From: a virus
Length of the DNA stretch: 26,893 bases
Strand: one strand, 5' to 3'
Virus record (IMG/VR): IMGVR_UViG_3300046722_000073
Location: 1 to 26,893 of that record
Of this stretch, positions 7,966-26,893 are shown piece by piece (within the stretch, counting starts at the first letter, position 1; every line of letters begins with the position of its first letter). A model generated the notes under the pieces. It had not been told where the DNA came from, searched no databases, and saw nothing but the letters and a program-made list of their open reading frames with translations. The position numbers and the translations under genes are program-made.

Positions 7966-7989
7966 TGCAAACGTATTTAGCAGAAGGGC
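7966..7989 (-). promoter_or_regulatory. Recurrent motif, site D (upstream of the XRE gene)
   Basis: + strand: TGCAAACG, then TATTTAGC, then AGAAGGGC. This is the most degenerate of the four copies but keeps the TGC...TTAGC order and spacing. It lies 16 nt before the XRE start codon. Confidence 0.45.
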
Positions 7990-8059
7990 CGCCCCCGTTC
8001 AAGGAAGCGGCCCCGTCGCCTGTGCCCCGCCCTCTGGGCGAGAGGTCAGGCGTCTATGT

Positions 8060-8575: not shown

Positions 8576-8592
8576 CGTCCTATTCTACCAAC

Positions 8593-8617
8593 TGCGTAGG
8601 GTATTAGCAAGGGGCTA
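8593..8617 (-). promoter_or_regulatory. Recurrent motif, site A (upstream of the HD gene)
   Basis: + strand: TGCGTAGGG, TATTAGC, AAGGGGCTA. The inner TAGC-AAGGG-GCTA is an imperfect inverted repeat. It overlaps the stop codon of the 8615-8800 gene and lies 17 nt before the HD start codon. On the leftward strand it reads TGCTAATAC. Confidence 0.55.
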
Positions 8618-8800
8618 CTTGCGGTAGCGACCCAGAAGCACACCGCCGCCGAACCTGTCCCACTCCTGTCCGCAGCCATACGGCGACCCACCCGCCTTCT
8701 GGCATTGCGAAATGAAGTCAGACCGGCCGCTTGGCTGCGCGGCGACGAGCGCCGCGCCAGCCATCAGGCCTATCAGGAAGACAACTGCCAACTTTGTCAT
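8615..8800 (-). CDS. Small secreted or membrane-anchored protein
   Basis: 61 residues from an ATG at 8798-8800 with GGAGG upstream. The N-terminus MTKLAVVFLIGLMAGAALVAAQ looks like a signal peptide or anchor. The mature part holds two Cys (ISQCQKAGG, YGCGQEW) that could form a disulphide, and ends in GRYRK. The ATG overlaps the stop of the upstream gene (ATGA). Function unknown; periplasmic location is inferred. Confidence 0.7.
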   Translation of the reverse strand: MTKLAVVFLIGLMAGAALVAAQPSGRSDFISQCQKAGGSPYGCGQEWDRFGGGVLLGRYRK

Positions 8801-8994
8801 GCGATCATGCCTCCGTCCTTCTTGGCCTCGTCCATCAGGGCGACCGCCAGTTCGCGCGGCGTCCAGCCGAAGGCCTTCTCGGCCTCCTGCATGCGCCCCG
8901 CAGGGAACAGGCCGAAGCGGACCCCGGCCTTCTCGTTGTCGTCCATCGTCGGCCACACCAAGGCGGCCCATGCTTGCAGCGGTGTCTCTGTCAT
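8797..8994 (-). CDS. Small hypothetical protein with a conserved-looking helix
   Basis: 65 residues beginning MTETPLQAWAALVWPTM, followed by DDNEKAGVRFGLFPAGRM and EAEKAFGWTPRELAVALMD. Coding overlaps by ATGA with both neighbours, so it is one of a translationally coupled set. The pattern of helices suggests a folded small protein. No family recognised. Confidence 0.7.
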   Translation of the reverse strand: MTETPLQAWAALVWPTMDDNEKAGVRFGLFPAGRMQEAEKAFGWTPRELAVALMDEAKKDGGMIA

Positions 8995-9227
8995 GCGGTC
9001 ACCTTTTCGGGTTGGAGGCTGGCGGCACTGACCAGCCCGATGAACACCCCGGTGTCGGGGGTTTCGAGGAAGTAGTGCCCCATCGTGCCTTGCTTGGGGC
9101 AGCCGTAGGGCGACTTCTTCATCACCCGCACCAGCGTGCCGCGCGGGATTTTGGGGGCGTTCTTCGGATCGAACCGCTCCCACCCGGCGGGCTGGTAGTC
9201 GTAAATCCGGCCCTTGATCACAGACAT
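8991..9227 (-). CDS. Small hypothetical protein, beta-rich
   Basis: 78 residues from an ATG at 9225-9227 with AGGAGG 7 nt upstream. It reads MSVIKGRIYDYQPAGWERF, then IPRGTLVRVMKKSPYGCPKQ, then MGHYFLETPDTGVFIGLVS, alternating in a way that suggests a small beta-barrel. Function unknown. Its neighbours on both sides overlap it by a few bases, indicating one operon. Confidence 0.7.
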   Translation of the reverse strand: MSVIKGRIYDYQPAGWERFDPKNAPKIPRGTLVRVMKKSPYGCPKQGTMGHYFLETPDTGVFIGLVSAASLQPEKVTA

Positions 9228-9379
9228 TCATCGTCCTCCTGTTCGCGTTGCGGGAAGTCGTAGTCGGGGTCGGAGCCGTAGTCGTCGGCACCGATGTCCC
9301 ACCCGTCGAAGTCGTTCTCGCCCAAGGCGCGCACCGTCTTGAGCGTCTGCTTCAATCGGGTTTCTCCGGGTCCTGTCAT
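9218..9379 (-). CDS. Small acidic hypothetical protein
   Basis: 53 residues from an ATG at 9377-9379 that overlaps the previous stop (TGATG). It begins MTGPGETRLKQTLKTVRAL and becomes strongly acidic: DGWDIGADDYGSDPDYDF, ending in EQEDDECL. Small acidic phage proteins can mimic DNA or bind host proteins, but nothing here proves this. Ribosome binding is probably by coupling. Confidence 0.6.
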   Translation of the reverse strand: MTGPGETRLKQTLKTVRALGENDFDGWDIGADDYGSDPDYDFPQREQEDDECL

Positions 9380-9603
9380 CAGATGTACCCGGCCGCTTTG
9401 AGTTCGTTGTAGATGTCGACCGCAGCCGCCTTCCAAGCCTCGCCGTTGATGAAGGCGTTCTCTCCGAAGTCCGGGGCCGGGGCGAAGGCCTGTGCCTTGG
9501 AGGCCTTGCACAGCACGTCCATGATCCAGACCTGCTTCATGGGGCTGCCGTACTCCATGATCTGCTTCACCACCTGTACGTTGGTCTTTTTCGCTTTCTT
9601 CAT
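9379..9603 (-). CDS. Small hypothetical protein, first of a leftward operon
   Basis: 74 residues from an ATG at 9601-9603 with AAGGA upstream. The N-terminus is Lys-rich (MKKAKKTNVQVVKQIMEYGS). The rest reads MKQVWIMDVLCKASKAQAF and INGEAWKAAAVDIYNELKAA, probably helical. Operator-like motif B stands 40-65 nt upstream. It leads a tightly packed set ending at 8615. Function unknown. Confidence 0.7.
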   Translation of the reverse strand: MKKAKKTNVQVVKQIMEYGSPMKQVWIMDVLCKASKAQAFAPAPDFGENAFINGEAWKAAAVDIYNELKAAGYI

Positions 9604-9642
9604 CTGTCGTCCTTTCTGTTGGCCACGTATTGAATATGCACG

Positions 9643-9668
9643 TGCGAACGATATTAGCAAGGGGCTAA
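9643..9668 (-). promoter_or_regulatory. Recurrent motif, site B (best copy)
   Basis: + strand: TGCGAACGA, TATTAGC, AAGGGGCTAA. The core TTAGCAAGGGGCTAA is an inverted repeat of TTAGC/GCTAA around a 5-nt centre. It lies in the divergent region between the 9379-9603 and 9755-10537 genes, so it could act on both. A second inverted repeat, TGCAT/ATGCA, lies at 9670-9686. Confidence 0.6.
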
Positions 9669-9754
9669 TTGCATGACTGCTATGCAGGGGGGCTTGACCC
9701 TGATACCATCGCCGTGCAATAACCTCCGGCTTACACTCTTTGCAAGGAGAAACC

Positions 9755-10537
9755 ATGAAAAGAACTGTACTGGCGGGGCTTGCCCTGCTTGCGGGCGTGG
9801 GGTTCGCGCAAGCTGACACCTTCGACCCGCTCGACCCGTTGATCAGCTACTCCTGCACCGGGACATCCGGTGGCTGCGCGCAGAATGACAACGGCACCTT
9901 CACGCCGCTGTCAAACCTTGGCTTCGGCTGGAAGATCGCGCCCGGTCCAGCGACCGGCAATCTGACCATTGGCGTGTTCGTGCCGACCAATGAAATTAAC
10001 CTGCCGACGTTCGTGCTGCCGGGACTGACCGACAACGGCGGCTCGCTGTTGCTGGCGCTCAAGATCGCAGCTTTGCTCAACGCCGCAGACGGCGCGAGCA
10101 TCGCGACTTATCTGGGTCTGCCGAACGCGGGCAGCTACTCACCGACCGACAACTTCGCGAACTTGTCTGTCGGCACGCCGCTGCAAGACCCCGGCTTCAC
10201 CGGGAACTACGAGGGCTTCAAGATCACCATTCCGAACATCACGCTCGATGGTCAGGGCGGTGGCTCGACGCTGCTCAACGAGTTCCTGTTCGGTGCCAAT
10301 CTTCCGGCCGGAAGCGTGATCGTCGGCTTCTTCGAGGAACTGTCGGGACCGAACCCCGGCGGTTTCGTCGGCACGGCGGCATCCAATGACCTCGTGGTCA
10401 CGCCGCAGCTTGTCGACACCACGCCGATACCGGGTGCCATCTGGCTGTTCGGCAGCGCGCTTGCTGCCTTCGGTATGGTGACACGCCGCACTCGCAAGGC
10501 AAAATCTGCGTGGGACATTTCGCCCCGCGCGGCGTAA
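9755..10537 (+). CDS. Secreted protein with PEP-CTERM-like sorting tail
   Basis: 260 residues from an ATG at 9755 with AAGGAGA upstream. A signal peptide (MKRTVLAGLALLAGVGFAQA) is followed by a Thr/Gly/Asn-rich, beta-type mature region. Near the C-terminus stands TPIPGAIWLFGSALAAF followed by GMVTRRTRK: a Pro-motif, one hydrophobic helix and a basic cluster, as in PEP-CTERM/VPLPA-CTERM proteins sorted by exosortase. Ten extra residues follow the basic cluster. The gene is rightward, while both neighbours are leftward, and it has its own terminator, so it resembles a moron. A TTGACC at 9694-9699 may be a -35 box, but the -10 is poor. Likely displayed on the host envelope; function unknown. Confidence 0.8.
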   Translation: MKRTVLAGLALLAGVGFAQADTFDPLDPLISYSCTGTSGGCAQNDNGTFTPLSNLGFGWKIAPGPATGNLTIGVFVPTNEINLPTFVLPGLTDNGGSLLLALKIAALLNAADGASIATYLGLPNAGSYSPTDNFANLSVGTPLQDPGFTGNYEGFKITIPNITLDGQGGGSTLLNEFLFGANLPAGSVIVGFFEELSGPNPGGFVGTAASNDLVVTPQLVDTTPIPGAIWLFGSALAAFGMVTRRTRKAKSAWDISPRAA

Positions 10538-10542
10538 CCTAA

Positions 10543-10679
10543 CCCGGTGCCGTGGTCGCCAAGTCATAGGAAGTCCCAAACACTCCCAACCGACAAAGCG
10601 CCACACCCACGGCACCGGGCACCTCGCATCGTCGGAGAGGGCGGTGTTCCCCACCCCAGAGACAACGGTGCGGGGTGCC
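10543..10679. ncRNA. Structured intergenic element 1 (candidate RNA)
   Basis: Two long stems lie side by side. CCCGGTGCCGTGG (10543-10555) pairs perfectly with 10607-10619 (13 bp, 51-nt loop). GGCACCTCGCA (10618-10628) pairs with TGCGGGGTGCC (10669-10679) with one G-U. The second loop contains GGGCGGTGTTCC and AGAGACAAC, phrases also found in element 2 at 17177-17276. A terminator follows directly. It may be a 3' UTR or a processed small RNA of the PEP-CTERM-like gene; function unknown. Confidence 0.5.
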
Positions 10680-10685
10680 ATGAAA

Positions 10686-10712
10686 AAAGCCGGGGGCAAA
10701 ACCCCCGGCTTT
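10686..10712. terminator. Bidirectional terminator
   Basis: Perfect 11-bp stem AAAGCCGGGGG/CCCCCGGCTTT with a 5-nt loop. Leftward it ends in a run of six T, giving a strong terminator for the DUF932 gene. Rightward the T tract is short. It separates two convergent genes. Confidence 0.85.
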
Positions 10713-10734
10713 CCTCGTTCAGGCCTACGCTCGA

Positions 10735-11826
10735 CTAGGCGGCCTGTGCGATCTGCCGCCACTGGCTGGGTGCCAGTTCGATCACCTGCGCGCCGATGCG
10801 TTCCAGATCGGTCGCCCGGTCGTAGTCCTCGACCGACTGCGAGGCGGCCGTGATCGCGTTGTAGAGGCCGAACCGCGACAGGTCTCCGCCGCTCGCCAGT
10901 TCCTTCAGGACCGACTTGCCCTCGACCTCGCTGAGGCCGAACTGCTTGCCAGCCATCGACACCACCTTGACCAGATCGTCACTCTCGATCTTGTCGGACT
11001 GCGTGCCCTCGATCTTGCACGCCAGCGCGTCGAACTGGACCCGGTCGAAGGCCGCCCGCGTCACGTCGACAAGCTGCGCCATCGACGCGATCTGCGTCTT
11101 GCGCTTGGTGTCGTCGGTGAGCATCGTGTAGTGCGCCTCGCTCACCAGTTCGTGCCTTGCACCGACATGGTACTTCCGCACGCTGCGCTCGCTGAAGCTG
11201 GCGAGGTTCGAGCAGAAGCTGTCGAACACGCCCGTGAGCACGTTCGCTCCGCCGTAGCCGACTTCGCTGTCGCTGATGGTGATGGCCGGTGAGAGGCAGC
11301 GCACGATGTTGTGCTTGCCGTCACCGAACTTGCCACCGATGGCAGCCAGTTCGCGCGTGACCTTCTTGTCCACGCACTTGATGTACATGCGCGTGTCGGT
11401 CACTTGGCAGGACATGACATCGACGTCGAGGTCGAGCAGGACCGGCAGCAGACTGGCGGCCATGTCCTCGTACTCCATGTCGGTCCTGAACTTGTCGGAG
11501 CGCACCGCGCGCAGCTTGCTATCCTGCGTGCGGAACAGTTGCTTGGTGGCGTTCTTGCGGAACCACGTGTTGACGTTGTCGGCCAGCAGCGAGGGGTCTT
11601 CCGCCAGCATCTTGTCGTAGTAGGCCTTCGGGATTTTGGTCACCTCCGCGATCTGCGCGTGACCGATCTTGTTCACCCCGAACTCCATGTCGCCAACCGT
11701 GACCGTTGGTTCGGCCAGCGGCTGCATTTCGACGTTCTTGGTGTTGGCGATGAAGTCCTTTTTTGTCTCCGCGCGCCGTGCGATTTCGGCGGCGAACTCT
11801 TGGATGGAATGTATTCCTGCCTTCAT
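10735..11826 (-). CDS. DUF932 phage/plasmid-like protein
   Basis: 363 residues from an ATG at 11824-11826 with AGGAG upstream. Characteristic parts are VGDMEFGVNKIGHAQIAE, RAVRSDKFRTDMEYEDMA, a GGANVLTGVFDSFCSNLASF stretch, and the HVGARHELVSEAHYTML region. DUF932 proteins are common in phages and plasmids with no fixed function; they are often encoded with recombination or anti-defence genes. The gene has its own sigma70-like promoter (11915-11944) and a strong terminator, so it is an independent, probably early unit. Length fits the family. Confidence 0.8.
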   Translation of the reverse strand: MKAGIHSIQEFAAEIARRAETKKDFIANTKNVEMQPLAEPTVTVGDMEFGVNKIGHAQIAEVTKIPKAYYDKMLAEDPSLLADNVNTWFRKNATKQLFRTQDSKLRAVRSDKFRTDMEYEDMAASLLPVLLDLDVDVMSCQVTDTRMYIKCVDKKVTRELAAIGGKFGDGKHNIVRCLSPAITISDSEVGYGGANVLTGVFDSFCSNLASFSERSVRKYHVGARHELVSEAHYTMLTDDTKRKTQIASMAQLVDVTRAAFDRVQFDALACKIEGTQSDKIESDDLVKVVSMAGKQFGLSEVEGKSVLKELASGGDLSRFGLYNAITAASQSVEDYDRATDLERIGAQVIELAPSQWRQIAQAA

Positions 11827-11914
11827 AGCGTACTCCTGTGGGCGTCAGCCCGGTTCGGCCTGTCTCTGGACCGCTCCCCTCAGCATGGAGGCGCAGCCCG
11901 ACCGGCCTGAGCGC

Positions 11915-11944
11915 ATTATAGCCCACGGCTGATTTCTTTTGCAA
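11915..11944 (-). promoter_or_regulatory. Leftward sigma70-type promoter for the DUF932 gene
   Basis: On the leftward strand TTGCAA (11939-11944), 18-nt spacer, TATAAT (11915-11920). The -10 is perfect. It is arranged back to back with the rightward promoter at 11963-11992. Confidence 0.7.
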
Positions 11945-11949
11945 GGGAT

Positions 11950-11958
11950 TTATCCACA
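11950..11958 (+). promoter_or_regulatory. Perfect DnaA box between divergent promoters
   Basis: TTATCCACA, identical to the box at 6715-6723 (opposite orientation). It lies exactly between the two -35 boxes, so DnaA binding could affect both promoters. Confidence 0.65.
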
Positions 11959-11962
11959 GGGC

Positions 11963-11992
11963 TTGTAATACCCTTGGCCGTAGGCGTATAAT
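11963..11992 (+). promoter_or_regulatory. Rightward sigma70-type promoter for the early region
   Basis: TTGTAA (11963-11968), 18-nt spacer, perfect TATAAT (11987-11992). The first gene starts at 12017 with GGAGGA. It heads the 12017-13076 genes and may extend to the recombination genes if the hairpin at 13084 is leaky. Confidence 0.75.
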
Positions 11993-12016
11993 TGTGGCAT
12001 CAAAACCGGAGGACCA

Positions 12017-12229
12017 ATGGACACGTCAACCAAGCTGGAACTGAAAGACATACCCGGCATGCCGGGGCTTGTGGCCTACCAGATCACCGCTCCCACCGCC
12101 GCCGAAGTGCAAGTCACCATCACCCGCATCATGAACCGCATCAGCAACAGCGGCGGCATCGCAGAGTTCAGGAACCCCTACCGCCAAGGCAACGAGTGGT
12201 TGTCGCGCGGCTACGTCAAGGAGGGATAA
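12017..12229 (+). CDS. Small hypothetical protein, first early gene
   Basis: 70 residues from an ATG at 12017 with GGAGGA 4 nt before it. It reads MDTSTKLELKDIPGMPGL, then VAYQITAPTAAEVQVTITRI and NPYRQGNEWLSRGYVKEG, a compact alpha/beta pattern. It is the first gene after a strong promoter and ends one base before the next ATG (TAAATG). Being first to be expressed, it may act on the host, but no motif shows how. Confidence 0.75.
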   Translation: MDTSTKLELKDIPGMPGLVAYQITAPTAAEVQVTITRIMNRISNSGGIAEFRNPYRQGNEWLSRGYVKEG

Positions 12230-12706
12230 ATGACTGAAGCAACAATCATTAAATTTCAGCCAAAGGCCGAGACCCAGTTTGTTTGTTCGTCCTGCGGTGC
12301 TGACCGTGGCTGCGATTGCAATGCGCCAGCGGTCGAGCGGCTGGCGCAGATTAGAGAAGATGGGCGTCAGCGCGTGCGAGTTCATCGAGCAAGAGAAAAG
12401 GAAAAAGCCGAGCAAAATCAACAACTGCGTAACGTTACAGACGACGACATGCCGACCGAGGCCGAGGCAGAGGCCAGTTCACAGGCCGACATTTACTACC
12501 ACGCATGCTTGCTCGTGGAACAGATGGCAAGCCCAACGAGGCGGCGGTTCACCAAGTGGTTCCACGCCTATACGACGGACATTAAAAATGATGAAAGCAA
12601 AAGCATTAAAGGACGCCCCGGCTTCCGGGGCAAAAGGCTTCCCTCTGTCAATCTTGCCCTCGAGAGAAGACCTGCAAAGCGCCATCGCACAAAACGGAAA
12701 GTGTGA
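12230..12706 (+). CDS. Hypothetical protein with a Cys-rich N-terminus
   Basis: 158 residues. Residues about 19-30 read CSSCGADRGCDC, a likely zinc ribbon or knuckle. Charged helices follow (RVHRAREKEKAEQNQQ, then TEAEAEASSQADIYYH), then RRRFTKWFHAYTTDI. The last about 38 residues are Arg/Lys-rich and overlap the next gene in another frame, so this tail looks like a by-product. GGAGGGATAA precedes the ATG. Function unknown. Confidence 0.7.
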   Translation: MTEATIIKFQPKAETQFVCSSCGADRGCDCNAPAVERLAQIREDGRQRVRVHRAREKEKAEQNQQLRNVTDDDMPTEAEAEASSQADIYYHACLLVEQMASPTRRRFTKWFHAYTTDIKNDESKSIKGRPGFRGKRLPSVNLALERRPAKRHRTKRKV

Positions 12707-13076
12707 CCCGCAACGCTGTTGGCACAAGGTCGCCATCACGGGCGTGTTGCATAAAATGGGCGAGGATAACCCGCGCGTTGCCGTCGATGCGGGGCACGTC
12801 CGATTTAAATTCAAGGGATGGCGCTATCGCTGCGACACGCCGCGACATGTCAAGCGTTCGCTAATGCTGTTCGACCGAGGATACTACGATCAAGTCTATG
12901 TGCGTCCGTACAAGTTGCGGGCACACCGCACCACAAAGGTAGTCCCGATTTCGGCTGAACGTCAGGAGCAGATCAACAAGGCGCGTGACCGTCGCATTAA
13001 GGGCGGTGGCAACGAACACAAGCGTAACTATCCTAGCCTACGAAAACGGGTGGAGGGCTTTTCAAGCGTCGTTTGA
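12588..13076 (+). CDS. Hypothetical basic protein overlapping the previous gene
   Basis: 162 residues from tandem ATGs at 12588 and 12591 (MMKAKALKDAPASGAK). The body reads GKCDPQRCWHKVAITGVLH, RVAVDAGHVRFKFKGWRYR, and VPISAERQEQINKARDRR; it is strongly basic overall. It overlaps the end of the 12230-12706 gene by 119 nt in a different frame. The ribosome site is weak, so the start could be slightly different. Two Cys and one His near CDPQRCWH might bind a metal. A nucleic-acid-binding role is plausible but unproven. Confidence 0.7.
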   Translation: MMKAKALKDAPASGAKGFPLSILPSREDLQSAIAQNGKCDPQRCWHKVAITGVLHKMGEDNPRVAVDAGHVRFKFKGWRYRCDTPRHVKRSLMLFDRGYYDQVYVRPYKLRAHRTTKVVPISAERQEQINKARDRRIKGGGNEHKRNYPSLRKRVEGFSSVV

Positions 13077-13083
13077 CCAACTT

Positions 13084-13112
13084 GCCGGGGCGCAAATGCC
13101 CCGGCGACTTTT
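13084..13112 (+). terminator. Intrinsic terminator or attenuator
   Basis: GCCGGGGC/GCCCCGGC, 8-bp perfect stem, 6-nt loop, then GAC and TTTT. It lies 8 nt after the stop of the 12588 gene and before the recombination genes. Confidence 0.7.
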
Positions 13113-13129
13113 AATAAAGGGGAACACCA

Positions 13130-13330
13130 ATGGCTTTTGATTTCAGTAAAAAGCAGATCGTCAAGCCTGATTGGCTTGTGTTGGGCAGGAAGAAAGACGG
13201 CCCGACAATCGTCCTCACCATTGCCAGCACCGAACTCAAAGCCGTGAACCGGCTGCGCCGATACCGCAACATTGGCTACACCAACCTCAGCATCTGGCAA
13301 GCGCACATTGCGCGAAAGGAAACACCGTGA
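13130..13330 (+). CDS. Small hypothetical protein before the ERF gene
   Basis: 66 residues from an ATG at 13130 with AAGGGG upstream. It reads MAFDFSKKQIVKPDWLVLGR, then GPTIVLTIASTELKAVNRLR, ending with a helix NLSIWQAHIARKETP. Its TGA overlaps the GTG start of the ERF gene (GTGA), so the two are translationally coupled. Function unknown. Confidence 0.75.
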   Translation: MAFDFSKKQIVKPDWLVLGRKKDGPTIVLTIASTELKAVNRLRRYRNIGYTNLSIWQAHIARKETP

Positions 13331-14079
13331 CCAAGCCGAAAGCTAAACGCGCGCTCGCCGTAGTGCCGCCGATGACCGACGCACAGGCCTTCCTCGCCAT
13401 GATCGACCGGGCCGCGCGCGACCCGCATGTCGACATCGGCAAGATGCGTGAACTGCTGGCGATGCGGAACGATGAGCAGCAGCGGCTTGCCAAGCAAGCC
13501 TTCAGCATCGCGATGGTCGAGTGTCAGGACGGCATGCGGCCGATCAAGAAGAACATGCAAGCCGACCGCTTCCGCTACGCCAGCCTCGAAGCCCTCGACG
13601 ATGCCCTGCGCGGCATCTACTCGAAGGCCGGGTTCGCGCTGTCGTACAACTCCGCACCCATCGAGGGCAGCCTGAACCGGCTGCTGATCAGTTGCACGGT
13701 GATGCACCGGGGCGGCCACGAGCAGGTGTACTCCGTGCCGATCACGGTCAGCACCAAGGGGCCGAAGGGCAGCGAGGTGATGACGCAGACGCAGGGTGAG
13801 GGCGCGGCTGTCTCGTTCGGCCGCCGCTACCTGCTGCTGATGATCTTCAACATCATCACGTCGGAGAACGACGCCGCCATCACCATGAACGGCGGCCCAA
13901 TCAGCGACGAGCAACTGTGGGCCTTGGGCGAGTTGATTAAAAAGACGAACACCAACGTGGCGGATTTCTGCGGCTACATGCAGGTCGATGCGCTGGTGAA
14001 CCTGCCGGTGTCGAAGTTTACGGACGCCAAGGCGGCGCTCGAAGCGAAAGAGAGAAAACAGAAGGAGGCCACCAAGTGA
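13327..14079 (+). CDS. erf: ERF-family single-strand annealing protein
   Basis: 250 residues from a GTG at 13327. ERF-family features: QQRLAKQAFSIAMVECQD, RFRYASLEALDDALRGIYSK, GFALSYNSAP, then TQTQGEGAAVSFGRRYLLLM and IFNIITSENDAA. ERF proteins anneal complementary single strands in phage recombination and genome circularisation or repair. The C-terminal part (SDEQLWALGELIKK and onward) is a small helical tail common in the family. It is coupled by GTGA to the next gene, a YqaJ-type exonuclease: a classic two-component recombinase. Confidence 0.9.
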   Translation: MTKPKAKRALAVVPPMTDAQAFLAMIDRAARDPHVDIGKMRELLAMRNDEQQRLAKQAFSIAMVECQDGMRPIKKNMQADRFRYASLEALDDALRGIYSKAGFALSYNSAPIEGSLNRLLISCTVMHRGGHEQVYSVPITVSTKGPKGSEVMTQTQGEGAAVSFGRRYLLLMIFNIITSENDAAITMNGGPISDEQLWALGELIKKTNTNVADFCGYMQVDALVNLPVSKFTDAKAALEAKERKQKEATK

Positions 14080-14741
14080 ACACGCTCGACGAGGCCAGAT
14101 GGCTGGCCGACGCTGAGGCGCAACCGATACTACAGGGCAGCCCCGAGTGGTTCGCCATGCGCCTTGGCAAGGTGACGGCATCCCGCATTGCCGACGTGAT
14201 GGCAAAGCCGCGCGTGCCGGGTGCGGGCATGCGGGTCAATTATCTATGGCAGCTTGCGACCGAACGGCTGACCGGGCTGCCGATGAAGACCTACCAGTCG
14301 AAGACCATGCTGGAAGCGCACGAATGGGAACCGATTGCCCGCGCGGCCTACGCCTTCAAGTCCGACAACCACGTACATCAGGTGCCGTTCGTCGATCACA
14401 ACGACATCCCGAACTGCGGCTGCTCGCCGGACGGGCTGGTGAACGGTGACGGGCTGGTCGAAATTAAATGCCCCGAACTCACGGCGCATTACGACACGCT
14501 GCTGCGCGAGGTCATCCCGGCTGAGTATCTAAAACAAATGCAATTTCAAATGGCTTGCTGCAAGCGCAAGTGGTGCGACTACGTCAGCTTCAACGCCGAC
14601 CTGCCGGAGAACATGCGGGTGGCGATCATCCGCTGCCCCCGCGACGTGGACATGATCAGCGAAATGGAGGCCGAGGTCAGGAAGTTTCAGGCCGAACTGG
14701 CGGAGAAGGTGGGGCTGCTGCGCGAGAAGTTTCCGTCGTGA
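14076..14741 (+). CDS. YqaJ-type (lambda Exo-like) exonuclease
   Basis: 221 residues from a GTG at 14076, with AAGGAGG upstream. Family motifs: GSPEWFAMRLGKVTASRIAD at the N-terminus, EAHEWEPIAR around residue 80, CSPDGLVNGDGLVEIKCP (Asp119, Glu129, Lys131 of the D...ExK site), and EYLKQMQFQMAC. The C-terminus is a helix. This enzyme resects double-strand ends to 3' tails for the ERF annealing protein encoded just upstream. All key acidic residues are visible. Confidence 0.9.
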   Translation: MNTLDEARWLADAEAQPILQGSPEWFAMRLGKVTASRIADVMAKPRVPGAGMRVNYLWQLATERLTGLPMKTYQSKTMLEAHEWEPIARAAYAFKSDNHVHQVPFVDHNDIPNCGCSPDGLVNGDGLVEIKCPELTAHYDTLLREVIPAEYLKQMQFQMACCKRKWCDYVSFNADLPENMRVAIIRCPRDVDMISEMEAEVRKFQAELAEKVGLLREKFPS

Positions 14742-18917: not shown

Positions 18918-19091
18918 TCACCCCGGCGCTGGCTTGGCGGCTGGCGGAGGAACGTAGGGGTCGGGCGTCTTGCCGACCTTCAGCCATGCCTCGTATTCCA
19001 TGCGGTCGCGGTTGGCAGGATCGTTGGGGATGAACACCTGATCTGCGGTCCTGAGAACGACATCGCTTCGTGTGAGTTCGTATTCTGCCAT
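18918..19091 (-). CDS. Small DPANRDR protein 2, tail-fibre partner
   Basis: 57 residues from an ATG at 19089-19091 that overlaps the stop of fibre 2 (TGATG). It reads MAEYELTRSDVVLRTADQVF, IPNDPANRDRMEYEAWLKVG, KTPDPYVPPP. The pattern (A/P)DPANRDR-x-EYE-x-W-L...PDPY-x-PP is common in small proteins encoded after phage tail fibres and at the end of tail-fibre assembly proteins. It is clearly related to the protein at 20392-20559. It may help the preceding fibre to fold. Confidence 0.8.
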   Translation of the reverse strand: MAEYELTRSDVVLRTADQVFIPNDPANRDRMEYEAWLKVGKTPDPYVPPPAAKPAPG

Positions 19092-20386
19092 CACAACCTC
19101 GCGTTAAGCGTCATGCTTGCATAAGAAATAGCCTGTACGCCGCCGACAGTTTGGATCGAAAGGTTCGTAGCATAGGGATAAATGTTATATGCGGTAAGCA
19201 GACTGCAATTAGAGTACGTTATGTTGAACAAGGTGACGCTTGGTGCCGCTCGCATTATCGGGTACGTAATTGTCTGGTAGGCGTTTGACACGCCGCCCGA
19301 GTAGCCCCCGACAAACACTATACTGAAAAGCTGCCAGTAACGCTGCGCCAGCGCCAGTTCCTGCTCGTAAGGCCGCATGACATAAAGCGGATGCGTAACT
19401 GCTGGCAGTTCGATGCCGGGAAGCATAATGAACCCGGTAAGAATAAAAATATCCGACGTGGTGGCAACGCCGTTGACTGTGCCCGTCACCCCGTAACGAC
19501 CGCCAGCCGTCCACGCGCCCGCCGTCCCGAGGAAGTTGCTGCCGCAAGCCATCGCAATAGTCACCCTGATCCCCGCCGTTGTGTCCTTCGTCCATGTGCC
19601 GGTGGTGTCGCCGGGGATGCTGATGACTTTGTATTCCCACGTGGACCCTGCGTTGATTGTGAAGGAGAACGGATAGGAACGGTTGAAGGTCGGCGGGTTG
19701 GTCACTGACCCGGAATAGAGGCCGGGGCGCACCGCGAAGGCCCAGAACGCAATCGTGATTGGCAGCGCGCCACCAGCGCCCCACCCAAGGCGACGGCAAC
19801 GCTGGCCTTCGATGTCCTGAAAAATAAACGTGTAGTCGCTTGGCCCGATGGTCGGCGCTGGCGTCGTGACCAGCACTTGCAGCGCACTGGAAAGCCCCGA
19901 GGGCGGGAAGGAATTTTGCCCTGAAGTGAGCGCCGCCGAGCCAGTGTTCGTAACCACCCAACCGTCAAGAATATATTTTGCGGAACCGGGCGGGAGAGTG
20001 ACAGAACTGCTGCTGTTCTCCTGACTGATTTCCATTGAGCCGTTGCTTTGCAAGCCGTAATAACCCATCGCATCGAGTGGCGCGGCGTAGATATTCTGGC
20101 GCGCCTGTTGCTGCTGCGTGGTGTTTAGACCCTGCGCGACTTCGGTGCGTACCGCCTTGGTGTCGACCGGGTGGACATGGTCCTCGCGCGTGAAACTGGT
20201 CGATGTCCCGACTACGGCTGGCGTGTTGTCCATCAGCGGCGCGAGCGTGCCGGGAGTTGCCGACACGATGGTGCCCCCGACCGTCGTCCACTTCTCTCCG
20301 TCCCACGTGTAAGTCGGGAGGCCAGCGATGGGAGAGGCCGGGTACTTCTGGCCGTTGGTCGGTGCGGTCGGGAAGTCGAGTGCCAT
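19091..20386 (-). CDS. Tail fibre / receptor-binding protein 2
   Basis: 431 residues from an ATG at 20384-20386 with AAGGAG upstream. The N-terminus (MALDFPTAPTNGQKYPAS, YTWDGEKWTTVGGT) and EDHVHPVDT are typical of phage tail proteins. A joint AQGLNTTQQQQARQNIYAAP leads to a beta-rich C-terminal part with NGSMEISQE, GTWTKDTTAGIRVTIAM and MRPYEQELALAQRYWQL. The same joint and C-terminal pattern occur in fibre 1, so the two C-terminal modules are paralogous. It probably gives an alternative host-binding tip. It lacks the collagen-like part. Confidence 0.85.
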   Translation of the reverse strand: MALDFPTAPTNGQKYPASPIAGLPTYTWDGEKWTTVGGTIVSATPGTLAPLMDNTPAVVGTSTSFTREDHVHPVDTKAVRTEVAQGLNTTQQQQARQNIYAAPLDAMGYYGLQSNGSMEISQENSSSSVTLPPGSAKYILDGWVVTNTGSAALTSGQNSFPPSGLSSALQVLVTTPAPTIGPSDYTFIFQDIEGQRCRRLGWGAGGALPITIAFWAFAVRPGLYSGSVTNPPTFNRSYPFSFTINAGSTWEYKVISIPGDTTGTWTKDTTAGIRVTIAMACGSNFLGTAGAWTAGGRYGVTGTVNGVATTSDIFILTGFIMLPGIELPAVTHPLYVMRPYEQELALAQRYWQLFSIVFVGGYSGGVSNAYQTITYPIMRAAPSVTLFNITYSNCSLLTAYNIYPYATNLSIQTVGGVQAISYASMTLNARL

Positions 20387-20391
20387 GACGG

Positions 20392-20559
20392 TTACTCCTT
20401 CGCCGTAGCGGGCGGCACGTAGGGGTCGGGGATATTGCCCTTGACCAGCAGCCAGCGTTCGTACTCCGCGCGGTCGCGGTTGGCGGGGTCAGGAGGAATG
20501 TTTGCTTGGTCAGCCAAGCGGACGATCATGTCGGTTTGCGTCAGTTGATATTCTGCCAT
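20392..20559 (-). CDS. Small DPANRDR protein 1, tail-fibre partner
   Basis: 55 residues from an ATG at 20557-20559 overlapping the fibre 1 stop (TAATG). It reads MAEYQLTQTDMIVRLADQAN, IPPDPANRDRAEYERWLLVK, GNIPDPYVPP. It is a paralogue of the 18918-19091 protein, with about half of the residues identical. Its 3' end provides the AAGGAG ribosome site of fibre 2. It probably assists fibre folding or attachment. Confidence 0.8.
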   Translation of the reverse strand: MAEYQLTQTDMIVRLADQANIPPDPANRDRAEYERWLLVKGNIPDPYVPPATAKE

Positions 20560-22838
20560 TACAGCCTCGCATCCGCTGTGCCGTGTCCATAGATGTTGTC
20601 ACTAGCGCCGAGTGTGGTGTTATTGACACCAAGCTGCACCGAGTTTGTGCCGATAGAACTTACAAAGGCTGGGATGTCACCAGAAAGTTGAGAACGGATG
20701 CCACCGGCATTTCCTGTCCACGGAGAATAAACTTTGCATGTAGGAGCGACGCGCTTTATCGCCCGGAAGGTCCATGTCGGCAAAAATGAGTAAGAGTTTA
20801 CCGCATAGACGTTCGCGCTAAACACACCGCCGCCTATGAAGTTACCATAGGCCGTCCCCGGCACATCGCTGACAGGGTAGGTTTTTTCGTAATAACGCTG
20901 GCACAGCGCCAACTCCTGATCGAACGGACGCATGATCAGCGGTGACTGCGCTGCGGTCGGAGCGGCGATGCCGGGGAGGACGATGACGCCTGTAAGCATC
21001 ACTTGATTGCCGTTTGTAGCAAAGAAATTTGTCGTAGCAGGACTTCCTTTTAAAGCCGACCCGCCCAGCCATGCGTTGGTTATGCCCCTCTGTGCTGAAC
21101 CGCAACCGAACGTAAAATAAATTGTTAGTCCTGCAATGTTGGTGTTGTTCCATGCACCCATTACATCGCCGGGAATGTTTATTGTCTTGTATTCCCATCC
21201 TGTTGTTGCAACGTGAACATCAACTAAGTAACTGCGGTCCGCACCGACGTTCGTTGCCATCACTGTCATCGTTCCCGCAATCGGACAAAGCACCCAGAAC
21301 GAAACCGTAAAAGGACTTGCGCTGGATGAACCTAGTGCGAGCCTACTGACACGGTAGCCCTCTATTACTGTGTATATGGTGGCAAAGTCGTTTGCTCCAG
21401 CCATTGCACTTGCTGTTGATGCGTTCATACGAATTGCTGTTCTGAACCCCGAGACTACTCCTGCGCCGTCATATTGTGACGCTGTAAAAACAGCGGTTGC
21501 CGCTGCCTGAGAATACGCGGCAGCAAACCCGTCGCATACATTTCTACCTGTGGCGTTTGGAAGGGTAAGTCCTGTATTACCAAGTTCCTGACTGACCTCC
21601 ATCCCGCCATTGATCTGCATGCCGCTGAAGGCCAGCGCGTCGAACGGCGCGGCGTAAATGTTTTGCTGCGCCTGTTGCTGTTGCGCGATGGTCAGTGACT
21701 GAGCATCGTAATGCACAACGGCACCGGGCGCGGTGTCAACGTAGGCCTTGCTGGCTGCGTGTGCTGGTGCGGTCGGAGGCGTGACCACGTTCAGCGGACC
21801 CGCCATCGTATCGCCGGACTTCTTCACAAACGTATTGATGTCCGGCTGCGGCGCGGCGATCACCCATTGCGTCGAGGTGCCGTCGTTGTAGCGCACGTAA
21901 AGCAGACCGCTGTCGCTTTCCCACCACAGCGACCCGTCCGCCGCACCGACCGGCGGCGTGTCCGACACCGCCAGCGTGGTGCCGCCGCCAACCCCGAAGC
22001 GCGCGTCATCGCCCGCCGCAACCGTCCCCGCCGTGGTGCCGACGTTGCGCGTTGCCGAGTTGCCGAGGCCCAAGTTGGTGCGCGAGGTCGGAACGCTGAG
22101 AACGTCCGACAGGTTGTTCGAGCGCAGCATGTCGCCCGAACCGGGACCTGCTGGCCCCTGATTGCCGGTATCGCCTTTGGGGCCTTGTGGTCCGATGGGG
22201 CCGAGGGGGCCTTGTGGTCCGGTGGGGCCGGTGGGGCCGGTAGGTCCTTGAAGCCCTGTGTCACCCTTGATGTTGGCGGCATCGCTGATGCTGGTGACGA
22301 ACCCCAATGGCCCGATATAGAAGCCGCTTGGCGGAACGTCGCCAACGCCGCCGGTCCATCCGGTGACTTTCATCACCTCGCGCGTGGACCCGTCTGGGAC
22401 AATCGCCACTAACGGTATCCACGTTGTCGGGATTGATATGATGGCCCCGTCACTGGTGTGCAGCGAGCGATTAAACCCGTCCTTCAACTGCGCCAGCGCG
22501 TGCCAGATTTTGTCGTAGGCGATTTCCTGATCGCCCGCGTCCATCGTTGACAGCACGGTGCCGTCGAGGTCCTGAATGAACTGCACGTCGCGTATAACGG
22601 TGAGGATGACGCCAGCGGCTGGCGTGAACAGCAGCGTTACCGTGCCCGCTGTCTCCGTCATCGCGCCGGTCAGTTCGTAATGGGAGTGTTCGACCAGCAC
22701 GCTTTCAAAGGTTGTCGTGGCGTCGGTGGTCAACACCTTCACGTCGTTGTTGTGCTGGAAGGCAAAGCCGGTCGAGAACACCCGCGTGATGCCGTTGCAG
22801 GTGTACTGGACGCGCGCGAGGTCTGACGAGACTGTCAT
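20559..22838 (-). CDS. Tail fibre 1 with collagen-like segment
   Basis: 759 residues. The N-terminal part (residues 1-130: QYTCNGITRVFSTGFAFQHN, AGDQEIAYDKIWHALAQLKD) matches the T7-like tail-fibre attachment domain. Residues about 192-232 are Gly-x-y repeats (GPTGPTGPTGPQGPLGP), a collagen-like rod. A short module with KSGDTMAGPLNVVTPP and HAASKAYVDT follows, then the QQQQAQQNIYAAPFDA joint and a beta-rich C-terminal tip with NGGMEVSQE and MRPFDQELALCQRYYEK. It binds the host surface. It is followed by its small DPANRDR partner and precedes a second fibre with a related tip. Confidence 0.9.
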   Translation of the reverse strand: MTVSSDLARVQYTCNGITRVFSTGFAFQHNNDVKVLTTDATTTFESVLVEHSHYELTGAMTETAGTVTLLFTPAAGVILTVIRDVQFIQDLDGTVLSTMDAGDQEIAYDKIWHALAQLKDGFNRSLHTSDGAIISIPTTWIPLVAIVPDGSTREVMKVTGWTGGVGDVPPSGFYIGPLGFVTSISDAANIKGDTGLQGPTGPTGPTGPQGPLGPIGPQGPKGDTGNQGPAGPGSGDMLRSNNLSDVLSVPTSRTNLGLGNSATRNVGTTAGTVAAGDDARFGVGGGTTLAVSDTPPVGAADGSLWWESDSGLLYVRYNDGTSTQWVIAAPQPDINTFVKKSGDTMAGPLNVVTPPTAPAHAASKAYVDTAPGAVVHYDAQSLTIAQQQQAQQNIYAAPFDALAFSGMQINGGMEVSQELGNTGLTLPNATGRNVCDGFAAAYSQAAATAVFTASQYDGAGVVSGFRTAIRMNASTASAMAGANDFATIYTVIEGYRVSRLALGSSSASPFTVSFWVLCPIAGTMTVMATNVGADRSYLVDVHVATTGWEYKTINIPGDVMGAWNNTNIAGLTIYFTFGCGSAQRGITNAWLGGSALKGSPATTNFFATNGNQVMLTGVIVLPGIAAPTAAQSPLIMRPFDQELALCQRYYEKTYPVSDVPGTAYGNFIGGGVFSANVYAVNSYSFLPTWTFRAIKRVAPTCKVYSPWTGNAGGIRSQLSGDIPAFVSSIGTNSVQLGVNNTTLGASDNIYGHGTADARL

Positions 22839-22845: not shown

Positions 22846-25800
22846 CTATTGCGTCGGGACGGCAAAGCCGCCGCCGACTGTTGGATTGCGCTGCGGCACC
22901 ACGGCTGGCCGACCGAAGCGGTCGGGCAGCGCGTCCTGTATCGGGTGTTCGGTCGCCATCTTCATCTGCTGCTGGCCCTGCTCGATGCCCTTGCCTTGCA
23001 GGTAGGTCGGCAGCTTCTGCGTTTCCTTGTGCTGCTGGCCTTCCCTGATTGTCTGGTAAAAGTCGGGGTAGCGCCACTTCGCCTCCGACATGATCTGCCG
23101 CTGCGCCGCCTCGCGATAGGTCTGCGCCCACTCCTTGATGAACTGCGCCTTGCCGCTGTCGGTGCCGGTCGCTGCCGGGTCGCTGCGGGTCTTGTAGATT
23201 TGCGAGTACATCGGGTCCTTGCCGCTGATCACCCGGTTGATGAAGTCCTCGAACCCGATCTTCTCGCCGGTCTTTGGATTGTACTTCAGTTCGTTCCCGG
23301 CCAGCCGCCGGTACATGTCGAGCACTTCGGGATGGTCGCGGAAGTTGACGTCGACATTCTGGAACGGGGCCTTCCACTGGATGCGCTCGACGCCGGAGTG
23401 CAGCCGCACCAGTTCGTTGTAGAGGGGATGGTCGTTCTGCCAGCTTAGGCGGAACGGGCTGACGGCGTTGTAGAGCAGCCCCGCTGCCCCGGCGGGCTGT
23501 TGCTTGACTTCGTGGCCGGTCAGGTCGCGCACCGGGATCAGCTTGTCGGACAGGCCGGGGATGTCCTTGTAGATCATCGCGTCCATGAAGTTGCTGATCT
23601 GGCGCTGCTGCGGGTCCATCATGTGTCCGGCCGCGCGCAGCGCCGACACGCCGGGGATCAGGTTCATCTGGCTCGAGGCGAGGTCGCGGAACAGCGAGCC
23701 GAGCGCGGAGCCGCCGGGTTGGGTGCTGGCGTCGTTGAAGGCCCCGAACACCTTGTTGAGGCCCTGCAAGTAGGACTGATCCACGGTCGAATAGGCGATG
23801 ATCGAAATGACTGACGACATCCACTCGTCGACCGTGTCGAAGGCCTCCGGGTGCAGGTCCTTGGTGGTCATCAGTTCGTTGATCGCGCCAGCGGCGGCGA
23901 TCATAGGCGCAAGCTGGCCCATGCCGCTGATTTCCACGTTCATCCTGCCGAAGCGCATCGACATGGGGCGCAGACCCATGCCCTGCTGCGCCTCGCCGTA
24001 GGCCTTCTCGCCGCGCATGGGTCCGGTCAGGTGGCCGTTGTGCGCGTAGTCGAACAGCAGCGCGGTGGCGGCCGACCCGGTTGCCATCTTCGCCAGCGCA
24101 AGGGCTGCCGGTGCGCCGCCTTGGCCGATGTCGGCTTGCCATTGCGTCAGCGCCGGGGCGATTGGCGAGTGTTCGATTGCGACCTTGAACAGGTTGGTGG
24201 GCGTGCGGATGTAGGGCAGCACCATGTACATGGGCAGCATGTTGTTGCGCGCCCGCATGATGTCGGAGGCGAACTTGCCGGGGTTGTTGTTAAAGGTCGC
24301 ATACATCGCGTGATCGACGGCGTTCAGATGCATGGCGTCGGACGGGGTAGAAATTAGCTTCGAGACTTCGTCGACGTAGGCCTTGCCTTGCAGTCCCTGC
24401 GCCATCGCTTGCCGGTGCGCCTGTGCCTCGATTTCTCCGCCGTAGCCGACCACCTTGAAGAAGTCGTCTGCCGCCGTCAGGAAGCGCCCCGGCAGCCGCA
24501 CGGTGCCCCCGATGTAGTCGACCGCCTTGCCCAGTGGGCTTTCGATGAAGGCCTGTGTCGCCACCGCCGACAGCCGCCGCTGCTGCGCGACAGCCGCCGC
24601 TGAAATAGCTTGCTTCGACTGCTCGATTGGGCCGCCGGTCAGCAGCGGCTCGAACTGGCGTTCGCCAGTCGTGAACGCCTTGCCCGCCGTGTCGAACGCG
24701 GTGCCGATCATGCGAAGCTGGCCGCGCACGTAGGCCAAGGCCTCCCCCGGTGCCACGGCGTTCTGCATGTCTTGGCCCATGATGGCGCTGAAGCGTTCGG
24801 CGGTCTTGCGGTCGACCGACTGCCACATTGCCATCGCCACGTTGCCGACGATGTTGCGGACCTGCGTGACCGGCCGCCACAGGAAGCCCATCGCGGTGGC
24901 CTCCTGAATGGCGTCCTTCGACCAGCGCCCCCACGAACGGCCAAGCGCGGCGTTGATCGCGCCGGAAGGCTGCCCTGCGTTCTTCAGGTCCACGATCATC
25001 TGCGACATGCGGCGCATGCCTTCCTTGCCGCCACTTTCTTCCAGCAGCACCGCCAGCCCGCGCGCGCGCGACAGCGTGCCCATCTGGTGGACGGCGCGCA
25101 GCGCGCCCAAGGCGCGACCGGCCTCCCCGGTTGCTCCAAGGAACTGCTCGACCAGCGCCATGTGTGTGACCATCGCCTCGTTGACCTTCATGGCGTCGGC
25201 CAGCGATGCGTGCTCCAACTGCGCTTGCGTGGCGAGTTGCAGCAGCCGCTCGTCGGAGGATTGCAGCACTTGCCCTGCCGCGATGATCTGCTCCGCGTTA
25301 AGCGCCTGTCCCGTCTGCCGCGCGATCAAGTCCTCCGGGGTTGTGTTGAGCGCGTCCGCCATCTGCTTCTGCGCCGCCAGCGTGATTTCTCCGCGCTTGG
25401 CGGCACTGATCTTGTCCTTCATCTGGCTGGCGATTTCACCGATGACACCGTTGAGGTTGCCCTTCTCGATGTTCTCCCAGTTCACTTTGGTCTGGATGTC
25501 GGCCAACGTCTGCGCCTTGGTGGCTTCGGTGACCGCCTTGCCGGTGACCTGACCGGGCACGCCGACCTTGGCGGTCGCCACGTCCCACGGCTGTTTCGCC
25601 CATGCCGCGTCGAACTTGGTCTGTACGTCGGCCTTCATCGCGTCGACCGCCGCCACCTTGTCGGCGGGCACGTTGTTGAGGTCCACCCGCTTGAACTGGT
25701 CATAGGCGTGGTGCAGGTCCTCCTGCACCGCATTGATTTCCTTCGGCACGATCTGGATTTCAGCGGTGAGGCCGGGGGCGACTTCCGCCTGTACGTGGAT

Positions 25801-26893
25801 GGCGCGGTAGCCGCCCTTCGGGTTGGCGATCTTGTCCTCGACGTCCAGCACCTTGAAGCGGTTGCCGATGTCGTTGAGCACGTCGGACGCCGCCTGTGGG
25901 CTGTCCACCGACAGCCGCGCACCAAGGTAGTCGCTGATCGCTTGCGGCGGGGTGCCCGCCGCCACCTTGTCGTTGATGCCCTTGATGTCCTTGACCCGCA
26001 CCCCGTTCGGGGCCACGTCGGAAGTGGCAACCTTGGCACCCGGCACATTGCTGGCGATGTCGGCCAGCGACCGCTCGACCTCTGGCTTAACCTTTTCGCT
26101 TGCCGCCAATAACTCGTTGATGTCGCCAGAACTTTGCTTTATAATCTTGTTCGAGGTCTTATCTATGCCACCCAATTCAAACGAACCTGTCAGGGTCGTC
26201 GACGAGGCACTTGTCGGCGGTGTTCCCTGTCGGCTGATCGAACTGGCCGATGGTTCCGGCAGGGTCGAGAGTTTCGTCAACGGCGCTTGGGTTCCCGGCG
26301 GCTGCACCATCAAGGAACTCTTGATGGGCACTCCCGTGGATGCTGGCGCGCCCGCTGGCGGCGCTGCCGCCGCCGCACCACCCGAAGGCGGCGCACCGGG
26401 CGCTGCCGACACGCCGGTTGGCGGCTTGCCTCCGACCGACACTTCGACAGCCGGACCACCCGGCTGAGGCTTGCCCGCCACCGCATCAATCAGGTCCTGT
26501 GCTTGCACGGTCGCAGCGTCCGCTGGCGCGGCCGCCGCCGCTGGCGGCGCTTGCGCTGCGGGCGCGACTTTGCCGTAGGCCCCGACCAGCTTGATGCCGC
26601 GCACGATACCCTCCGCCGCGACCGTCCCGACCACGCCTTCGGCGGCGTGGCGCAGCCGGTTGAGCGCGGCGTTGTCGCCAGCATGGGTCGCCAGCACGTC
26701 GCTGATCGGTCCCTGCAATGACGGGTACTGCTTCACGATCATGCTGGTCATGTTCGGCTGGTTCGGGTCGGTGCCCAAAAACATCGAAATGCCAGCCGCC
26801 GCAGGTGAGGCCAGAAACTCCGGTATCTTCCCCGCCTTGAGCAGCCCAAGCGGGCCGCTGTAGCCCGACATGAACTCGCTGATGCCTCTGATC
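22846..26893 (-). CDS. Giant virion or polyvalent protein with RelA/SpoT-like domain, 5' end cut
   Basis: At least 1341 residues; the frame stays open through the right edge (IRGISEF before the first visible Met), so the true N-terminus lies outside. Layout from that Met: residues 1-100 helical; 100-240 a Pro/Ala/Ser-rich linker; about 255-395 a RelA/SpoT-like nucleotidyltransferase domain; 400-640 helical; about 660-700 a membrane-associated-looking segment with QVRNIVGNVAMAMW; the rest long helical parts, including VLPYIRTPTNLFKVAIEH, typical of polyvalent phage proteins that enter the cell with the DNA. The late-operon position just before the tail fibres supports a virion protein that may be ejected into the host. 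Confidence 0.85.
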   Translation of the reverse strand, partial: IRGISEFMSGYSGPLGLLKAGKIPEFLASPAAAGISMFLGTDPNQPNMTSMIVKQYPSLQGPISDVLATHAGDNAALNRLRHAAEGVVGTVAAEGIVRGIKLVGAYGKVAPAAQAPPAAAAAPADAATVQAQDLIDAVAGKPQPGGPAVEVSVGGKPPTGVSAAPGAPPSGGAAAAAPPAGAPASTGVPIKSSLMVQPPGTQAPLTKLSTLPEPSASSISRQGTPPTSASSTTLTGSFELGGIDKTSNKIIKQSSGDINELLAASEKVKPEVERSLADIASNVPGAKVATSDVAPNGVRVKDIKGINDKVAAGTPPQAISDYLGARLSVDSPQAASDVLNDIGNRFKVLDVEDKIANPKGGYRAIHVQAEVAPGLTAEIQIVPKEINAVQEDLHHAYDQFKRVDLNNVPADKVAAVDAMKADVQTKFDAAWAKQPWDVATAKVGVPGQVTGKAVTEATKAQTLADIQTKVNWENIEKGNLNGVIGEIASQMKDKISAAKRGEITLAAQKQMADALNTTPEDLIARQTGQALNAEQIIAAGQVLQSSDERLLQLATQAQLEHASLADAMKVNEAMVTHMALVEQFLGATGEAGRALGALRAVHQMGTLSRARGLAVLLEESGGKEGMRRMSQMIVDLKNAGQPSGAINAALGRSWGRWSKDAIQEATAMGFLWRPVTQVRNIVGNVAMAMWQSVDRKTAERFSAIMGQDMQNAVAPGEALAYVRGQLRMIGTAFDTAGKAFTTGERQFEPLLTGGPIEQSKQAISAAAVAQQRRLSAVATQAFIESPLGKAVDYIGGTVRLPGRFLTAADDFFKVVGYGGEIEAQAHRQAMAQGLQGKAYVDEVSKLISTPSDAMHLNAVDHAMYATFNNNPGKFASDIMRARNNMLPMYMVLPYIRTPTNLFKVAIEHSPIAPALTQWQADIGQGGAPAALALAKMATGSAATALLFDYAHNGHLTGPMRGEKAYGEAQQGMGLRPMSMRFGRMNVEISGMGQLAPMIAAAGAINELMTTKDLHPEAFDTVDEWMSSVISIIAYSTVDQSYLQGLNKVFGAFNDASTQPGGSALGSLFRDLASSQMNLIPGVSALRAAGHMMDPQQRQISNFMDAMIYKDIPGLSDKLIPVRDLTGHEVKQQPAGAAGLLYNAVSPFRLSWQNDHPLYNELVRLHSGVERIQWKAPFQNVDVNFRDHPEVLDMYRRLAGNELKYNPKTGEKIGFEDFINRVISGKDPMYSQIYKTRSDPAATGTDSGKAQFIKEWAQTYREAAQRQIMSEAKWRYPDFYQTIREGQQHKETQKLPTYLQGKGIEQGQQQMKMATEHPIQDALPDRFGRPAVVPQRNPTVGGGFAVPTQ
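25687..26109 (-). other. RelA/SpoT-like synthetase domain inside the giant protein
   Basis: Residues about 255-395 of the visible protein. Motifs in the order of (p)ppGpp synthetases: GVRVKDIKGINDK (Arg292, Lys294, the R-x-K segment), SDYLGARLSV (Asp314, Gly317, Arg319), VEDKIANPKGGYRAIHVQ (Lys352, Gly354-Tyr355-Arg356, His359), and AEIQIVP (Glu371, Gln373), then EDLHHAYDQFK. All expected catalytic and substrate residues are present. The usual IRT after IQ is IVP. The product could be ppGpp, ppApp or another pyrophosphorylated molecule, or RNA. Confidence 0.75.

Follow-up and report, generated by a model that had tools for sequence, protein, structure and literature searches.

What would an enzyme of the alarmone synthetase type be doing inside a giant phage protein? 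The question is raised by a 26,893-base virus record of IMG/VR (IMGVR_UViG_3300046722_000073), here called the window, on which coordinates are given. An earlier note, made from the letters alone, had pointed to a RelA/SpoT-type nucleotidyltransferase domain at 25687–26109, built into a giant and probably ejected phage protein. Profile, fold and residues now support that domain, and its carrier is a member of the T7 gp16 family, internal virion protein D (IVP-D). The same genome encodes a small alarmone hydrolase. We narrowly favor the proposition that the ejection protein brings a pyrophosphokinase into the host and that the phage has, in its genome, an enzyme to remove the product.

The Synthetase-Type Domain

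The Pfam profile RelA_SpoT (PF04607) scores 28.1 bits on the window open reading frame (ORF) and, when the genome is searched, 33.7 bits, over the curated cut-off of 27, and all five aligned IVP-D members match it. A five-row profile of the phage family spans 25564–26163 (minus strand), which is residues 422–621 of IVP-D. The domain is where it was first seen, but the bounds given then were somewhat too narrow. Within it, the residues of the RSH synthetase site lie at 25750–25998 in the correct order and spacing. These are R477-x-K479 (25990–25998), a third lysine, K487 (25966–25968), D499 and R504 of a D-x-x-G-x-R motif (25915–25932), G539-Y540-R541-x-x-H544 (25795–25812), and E556-x-Q558 of an E-I-Q-I motif (25750–25761). 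They align with the R-x-K, K, D, R, GYQ, H and E-x-Q of canonical Bacteroides RSH. An alignment of eight phage sequences, made up of five IVP-D and three other phage proteins, shows no variation at R56, K58, K66, D78, R83, G118-Y119-R120, H123, E135 and Q137 (domain numbering). Three of the motifs first reported in the ORF at 22846–26892 (R-x-K, D-x-x-G-x-R and E-I-Q-I) are present in family order and spacing. Of the fourth, K-G-G-Y-R-x-x-H, the G-Y-R-x-x-H portion is invariant, but the leading lysine is not, the relatives having VDGYR, KDGYR or QYGYR. In 20,000 shuffled versions of the protein, a regular expression for the whole motif series never matched, and in the six-frame window it occurred once; as the expression was written after the sequence was seen, this serves only as a sanity check. 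By profile and residues, 25564–26163 encodes a RelA/SpoT synthetase-type domain with all of the main catalytic residues. It looks like an intact enzyme domain, a predicted pyrophosphokinase.

AlphaFold models from five and eight natural sequences reached a pLDDT of 85.5 and 87.9 and a pTM of 0.82 and 0.84, respectively. The structure-library searches cover the five-sequence model alone. Foldseek against the PDB placed SAS2/RelP first (E 8.5e-8), followed by RelQ, Rel and RelA. The VIA-align Z scores were 14.7 for RelP, 12.2–12.8 for CapRel, 11.8 for Tas1 and 7.0 for FaRel2, with unrelated folds at about 7. In a viral structure library, most of the top matches were large proteins, many of 1000–1300 residues, and some were annotated as RelA/SpoT, DdrB-like or ART-PolyVal-like. 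We are confident that the predicted fold is the pol-beta-type nucleotidyltransferase of alarmone synthetases, with small alarmone synthetases as the closest solved structures. These profile and structure results confirm the observation of the earlier note; its interpretation is partly supported, as taken up below.

The product is less straightforward. The syn2 arginine (R504) and syn3 histidine (H544) are invariant, as in the RSH signature. The I-R of syn4 is absent; the residue after E-x-Q-I is valine in the IVP-D family and arginine in RSH (EIQIV versus EIQIR), and all IVP-D members read I-V-P. The change of arginine to valine suggests an acceptor site unlike that of classic (p)ppGpp synthetases. 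For that reason, we do not file the domain as a (p)ppGpp synthetase but predict that it acts like one. Since the missing arginine leaves the acceptor open, a toxSAS-like domain with another acceptor becomes a serious rival, if a rather unlikely one. The acceptor would be the 3′ CCA end of tRNA, as in the FaRel2/CapRel type, or ATP, as in the Apk type. The effect would be blocked host translation or ATP drain rather than (p)ppGpp signaling, with the hydrolase reversing it. The place of CapRel among the structural matches is in keeping with this, while FaRel2 is a weaker match. The signatures given for Apk2 toxins are AVR and SxH for guanosine (RSH) and RYT and GxN for adenosine (Apk) (PMC12226406). 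The syn2 arginine and syn3 A-x-H found here are nearer to the former, which argues against this rival.

The Carrier Protein

The carrier (22846–26893, minus) is the last minus-strand ORF in the window (22846–26892). Its 5′ end is cut at the right edge, leaving 1348 residues visible. Complete copies in sister contigs have 1524 residues (L003:7288–11862) and 1526 residues (L002:6904–11484). A conserved C-terminal ejection-protein region (residues 798–1159; 23416–24501, minus) matches phrog_6651, "internal virion protein", with E 4e-16. By tblastn, the carrier resembles the annotated IVP-D proteins of a number of phages, among them Desulfovibrio phage ProddE and phages of Pelagibacter and Roseobacter, at 22–30% identity and E down to 4e-19. 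Upstream of IVP-D in L003 are a gp11-like gene (phrog_394), a gp12-like gene (phrog_376, E 3e-188), a gene for a gp14-like internal virion protein (phrog_418) and, in the gp15 position, a gene for a protein of 1154 residues. Tail fibers follow downstream, and gp11–gp12–gp14–gp15–gp16–fiber is the T7 structural order. Homology and gene order identify the carrier as a T7 gp16-like internal virion protein D. This agrees with the suggestion that it is ejected, which the analogy to T7 gp16 makes very probable. T7 gp14, gp15 and gp16 enter the host by ejection, and the C-terminal part of gp16 has been assigned to the host cytoplasm (PMC8954989).

The T7 likeness stops short of transcription. Neither the window nor any of the near-complete relatives G009, G032 and G019 yielded a T7-type RNA polymerase in searches with PF00940, while the positive controls, Autographiviridae W01 and W02, both matched with E below 1e-95. 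The label Autographiviridae was rejected, as this single-subunit polymerase gene was not found. Because it is missing, the phage probably depends on the host RNA polymerase.

Two observations on the virion proteins of relatives may be added. The 1154-residue protein in the gp15 position (L003:3824–7288, plus) has an SLT-like stretch, ESGGRANAVTGQYKGVFQLS, and no Pfam match. Possibly the cell-wall enzyme has shifted from gp16 to gp15, like in K1E-type phages. The IVP-D gene of G032 (L058:2288–6877, plus; IMGVR_UViG_3300044699_000016) is split by two frame changes, probably a sequence error.

The Domain as Inserted Cargo

When the carrier is aligned with eight other IVP-Ds, the N- and C-terminal blocks correspond, and the RelA/SpoT domain is unmatched together with the linker ahead of it. 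The linker, Ala/Pro-rich and of low complexity, was located at 26137–26571 (minus) by two alignments. Relatives in IMG/VR were gathered both via gp12 and via the domain itself. The domain is absent from ten other D proteins, namely, the eight IVP-Ds and those of L036 and L037. The gp12 of L037 is 77% identical to that of the window phage, yet its IVP-D has no domain. Domain-bearing lineages are represented by L026/L025/L054/L055, L035/L053, L028/L059/L060 and L058. It is clear that the domain and linker are an insertion into an ejection-protein scaffold. Between lineages, the ratio of nonsynonymous to synonymous substitution (dN/dS) in the domain is 0.12–0.37, like or below most of the remaining protein, these figures being rough owing to high dS in some pairs. 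The domain is maintained under purifying selection in several phage lineages.

Related domains occur in other viral proteins. The whole-family alignment, A1, was too divergent for use in scanning, and a pattern specific for KGGYR matched sister contigs only. A scan with GYR-x-x-H followed by E-x-Q-I found a wider subfamily, adding L070, L072 and L063, which have the same variant. L070 is a 41.6-kb viral contig with an ORF of at least 2847 residues (5049–13589, plus) containing ddrB-ParB, RadC/JAB, RelA_SpoT and LPD38 domains. In that scan of viral sequences, its RelA domain was the closest found outside this phage group. L072 is a protein of 1116 residues with a portal-like phrog_21 match, and L063 has 410 residues. 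When INPHARED phages and PLSDB plasmids were searched with the domain by tblastn, all matches had E 0.2–0.7. Two candidate relatives were rejected: a Mammaliicoccus tape-measure match lacks a RelA_SpoT match, and a "Bacteriophage sp." match is to a full-length RSH gene of bacterial type, whose contig carries bacterial genes.

These comparisons bear on whether the domain is an enzyme at all. It might be ejected or packaged and yet be catalytically idle, serving the ejectosome as a module that binds nucleotides or has a structural part. Its location in a structural protein, the absent syn4 arginine and the fact that related phages manage without it all fit such a role. However, all of the other catalytic residues are invariant in sequences with 28–66% identity to the window's, other giant proteins included, and there are both the purifying selection and the co-occurring hydrolase to account for. 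We consider an idle domain improbable.

A Mesh1-Like Hydrolase in the Same Genome

The gene at 8060–8575 (minus), which the earlier note did not mention, encodes 171 residues with HD, ED and KLAD motifs, seen in the sequence as LHDILEDT and IKLADIIDN. It matches PF13328 (HD_4) with E 3e-15 and 50 bits, over a cut-off of 27.2. The best solved match is human Mesh1 (3nr1, E 6.7e-16), and the hydrolase domains of SpoT and Rel come next. A match to phrog_990, metal-dependent phosphohydrolase, was also found. A MazG-type identity was rejected in favor of HD_4/Mesh1. By these matches the product is a small alarmone hydrolase of the Mesh1/SAH type with its motifs intact, and it is 59–72% conserved in the domain-bearing phages G009, G032 and G033. 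We propose it as a counter-enzyme to the synthetase domain. Its presence supports alarmone-type chemistry and turns the model into a synthetase/hydrolase pair. It is also relevant to the acceptor. The protein is far nearer to Mesh1 and SpoT than to the solved (p)ppApp hydrolase 7smg, which speaks against a tRNA or ATP acceptor; in favor of one, a phage hydrolase, PaSpo, counteracts toxSAS enzymes (PMC9712102).

Upstream of the hydrolase gene, 8991–9227 (minus) encodes a conserved protein of 78 residues. It is in four domain-bearing phages and was not found in G019, the same pattern as the hydrolase over five records. On this weak evidence, it is a possible accessory.

Possible Joint Gain and Loss

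The hydrolase is present in all four domain-bearing records that cover its locus (G000, G009, G032 and G033). Two fragments from the same species as the window, G014 and G039, have it as well. The domain was not found in these, as expected, because IVP-D lies past the fragment ends by position. By contrast, the hydrolase is in none of 29 near-complete records of related or TerL-similar phages without the domain (G018, G019, G025–G027, G029, G031, W01–W09 and G040–G052). The one-sided Fisher p is 2.4e-5, a value valid only if the records are independent, which by phylogeny those of the 4-versus-29 table are not.

One of the 29 is informative beyond the count. By most genes, G019 is the nearest relative of the window phage. 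Its large terminase subunit (TerL) is 89% identical, versus 77–80% for G009, G032 and G033. The corresponding values are 84% versus 50–62% for the gene at 1172–1780 and 80% versus 37–41% for the gene at 13279–14235. Its IVP-D, however, is only 33% identical (versus 51–72%) and is missing the domain. G019 is also without the hydrolase, though the downstream neighbor (7726–7953) is 84% identical. The two loci, with some 17 kb between them, have thus changed in concert. It is a single event and could be coincidence.

The hydrolase might nevertheless be independent of the domain, an ordinary gene directed against host (p)ppGpp or a toxSAS defense, with the co-occurrence reflecting common descent. 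Stand-alone small alarmone hydrolases are known in phages (phrog_990; PaSpo, PMC9712102), and here the genes are far apart and the independent lineages few. But G019, closest in most genes and without both, breaks the pattern expected from descent, and the 29 domain-less phages all lack the hydrolase. We regard independence as unlikely, though it is the strongest of the rival explanations.

Two ORFs of G019 lie where the window phage has the hydrolase (G019:38226–39574, equal to L087:18226–19574, plus). They have signal peptide-like starts and, unusually among phages, tails of the form PLPAAVWLFGSAL...RRRK that resemble PEP-CTERM (VPLPA) sorting signals.

A Proposed Course of Infection

With a synthetase/hydrolase pair as the favored reading, infection would proceed as follows. 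The gp16-like ejection protein, with its pyrophosphokinase cargo, would exit the capsid before the DNA. On reaching the cytoplasmic side of the inner membrane, the domain would move pyrophosphate from ATP to the 3′-OH of an acceptor, most likely GDP or GTP, giving (p)ppGpp. Within minutes of the start of infection, the rise in alarmone would lower transcription, replication or translation in the host. By analogy to T7 gp16, this would precede the phage's own gene expression. The genome-encoded hydrolase would later clear the product and allow phage replication, and it may also shield cells that are producing new copies of the ejection protein. As to whether so few molecules could matter, a toxSAS or exported synthetase works at about 1e5 per minute (PMC12691689). 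By our arithmetic, 4–6 ejected copies at that rate would make about 1 mM alarmone per minute in a volume of 1 fL.

Several points weigh against this reading. To the valine at syn4 and the shared ancestry of the records can be added that the hydrolase is about 17 kb from the domain, with no shared operon. A slow enzyme in few copies could not alter alarmone pools. Finally, the domain sits after the N-terminal block and before the C-terminal region, so that it may be on either side of the membrane; the N-terminal ~228 residues of T7 gp16 are periplasmic, and no clear transmembrane helix was seen in IVP-D.

The enzyme could also work late, in the producing cell, acting on lysis timing or on superinfecting phages instead of at entry. 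The gene is among structural, presumably late genes, and Apk2 domains are toxic when made inside the cell (PMC12226406). A stand-alone enzyme would suffice for such a role, however, and its being fused with an ejection protein suggests delivery. We think late action as improbable as an idle domain. As for the arrangement in general, we offer only tentatively, at somewhat less than even confidence, that certain podophages have an alarmone synthetase attached to their machinery for DNA ejection and encode a Mesh1-like hydrolase of their own, making a timed pulse that is on at entry and off later, with the two unlinked genes gained and lost together.

Relation to Known Systems

In 2017, Iyer et al. 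(PMC5512222) predicted RelA/SpoT domains in MuF fusions and in the polyvalent proteins of phages. As in the present case, a RelA/SpoT domain is there in a large protein of the virion locus, and delivery with the DNA is predicted. The passages concerned name (pro)phages of spirochaetes and epsilonproteobacteria besides MuF fusions, and they describe no hydrolase partner. Our carrier differs in being of the T7 gp16 type with no further polyvalent domain detected. On the complete 1526-residue IVP-D, Pfam finds RelA_SpoT as the sole domain, without MuF or any polyvalent domain. The term "polyvalent protein" was rejected for the window IVP-D for want of a second domain; L070 does qualify.

The other precedent is biochemical. 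In prophages, Apk2 MuF toxins are accompanied by the hydrolase Aph1, and their synthesis of (p)ppApp has been demonstrated (PMC12226406). The likeness is that a RelA/SpoT-family synthetase is joined to a phage virion protein and that the phage also has an alarmone hydrolase. Apk2, however, is a MuF head protein of temperate phages with a C-terminal toxin, adjacent immunity genes and ATP-specific Syn motifs (PMC12226406), whereas here the synthetase domain is inserted within an ejection protein, the Mesh1-like hydrolase is unlinked, and syn2 and syn3 are RSH-like. A MuF/Apk2 identity was rejected because there is no MuF N-terminal domain and syn3 is AxH, not GxN.

T7 gp16 itself is alike in gene order, large size and having an enzymatic cargo. 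That cargo is a transglycosylase, and K1E-type phages have lysozyme activity on a gp15-like protein (PMC8954989). Here it is a nucleotidyltransferase, replacing the cell-wall enzyme or besides it. The hydrolase is matched by phrog_990 and PaSpo of Salmonella phage SSU5, which are likewise phage-encoded Mesh1-type HD hydrolases; the difference is that ours co-occurs with a synthetase domain in the ejection protein of the same phages. In the open-access literature searched, we found neither a RelA/SpoT domain in a T7 gp16-type ejection protein nor coupling to an unlinked Mesh1-like hydrolase, and prior description is possible. Within that literature, the kind is already known from polyvalent and MuF proteins, and the gp16-type carrier and unlinked hydrolase are the new part.

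Phage delivery of alarmone makers with the DNA has stood as a prediction since 2017, and in the literature consulted the biochemistry is confined to prophage MuF toxins. A well-studied T7-type entry path, with a candidate off-switch in the same genomes, makes the delivery question testable. If the proposal is true, the stringent response would join the host systems open to seizure by a phage before any gene is transcribed.

Other Features of the Window

Two tail-fiber genes, at 20559–22838 and 19091–20386 (both minus), share a phrog_4492 C-terminal region. The first of the pair (20559–22838) has a collagen-like Gly-X-Y stretch.

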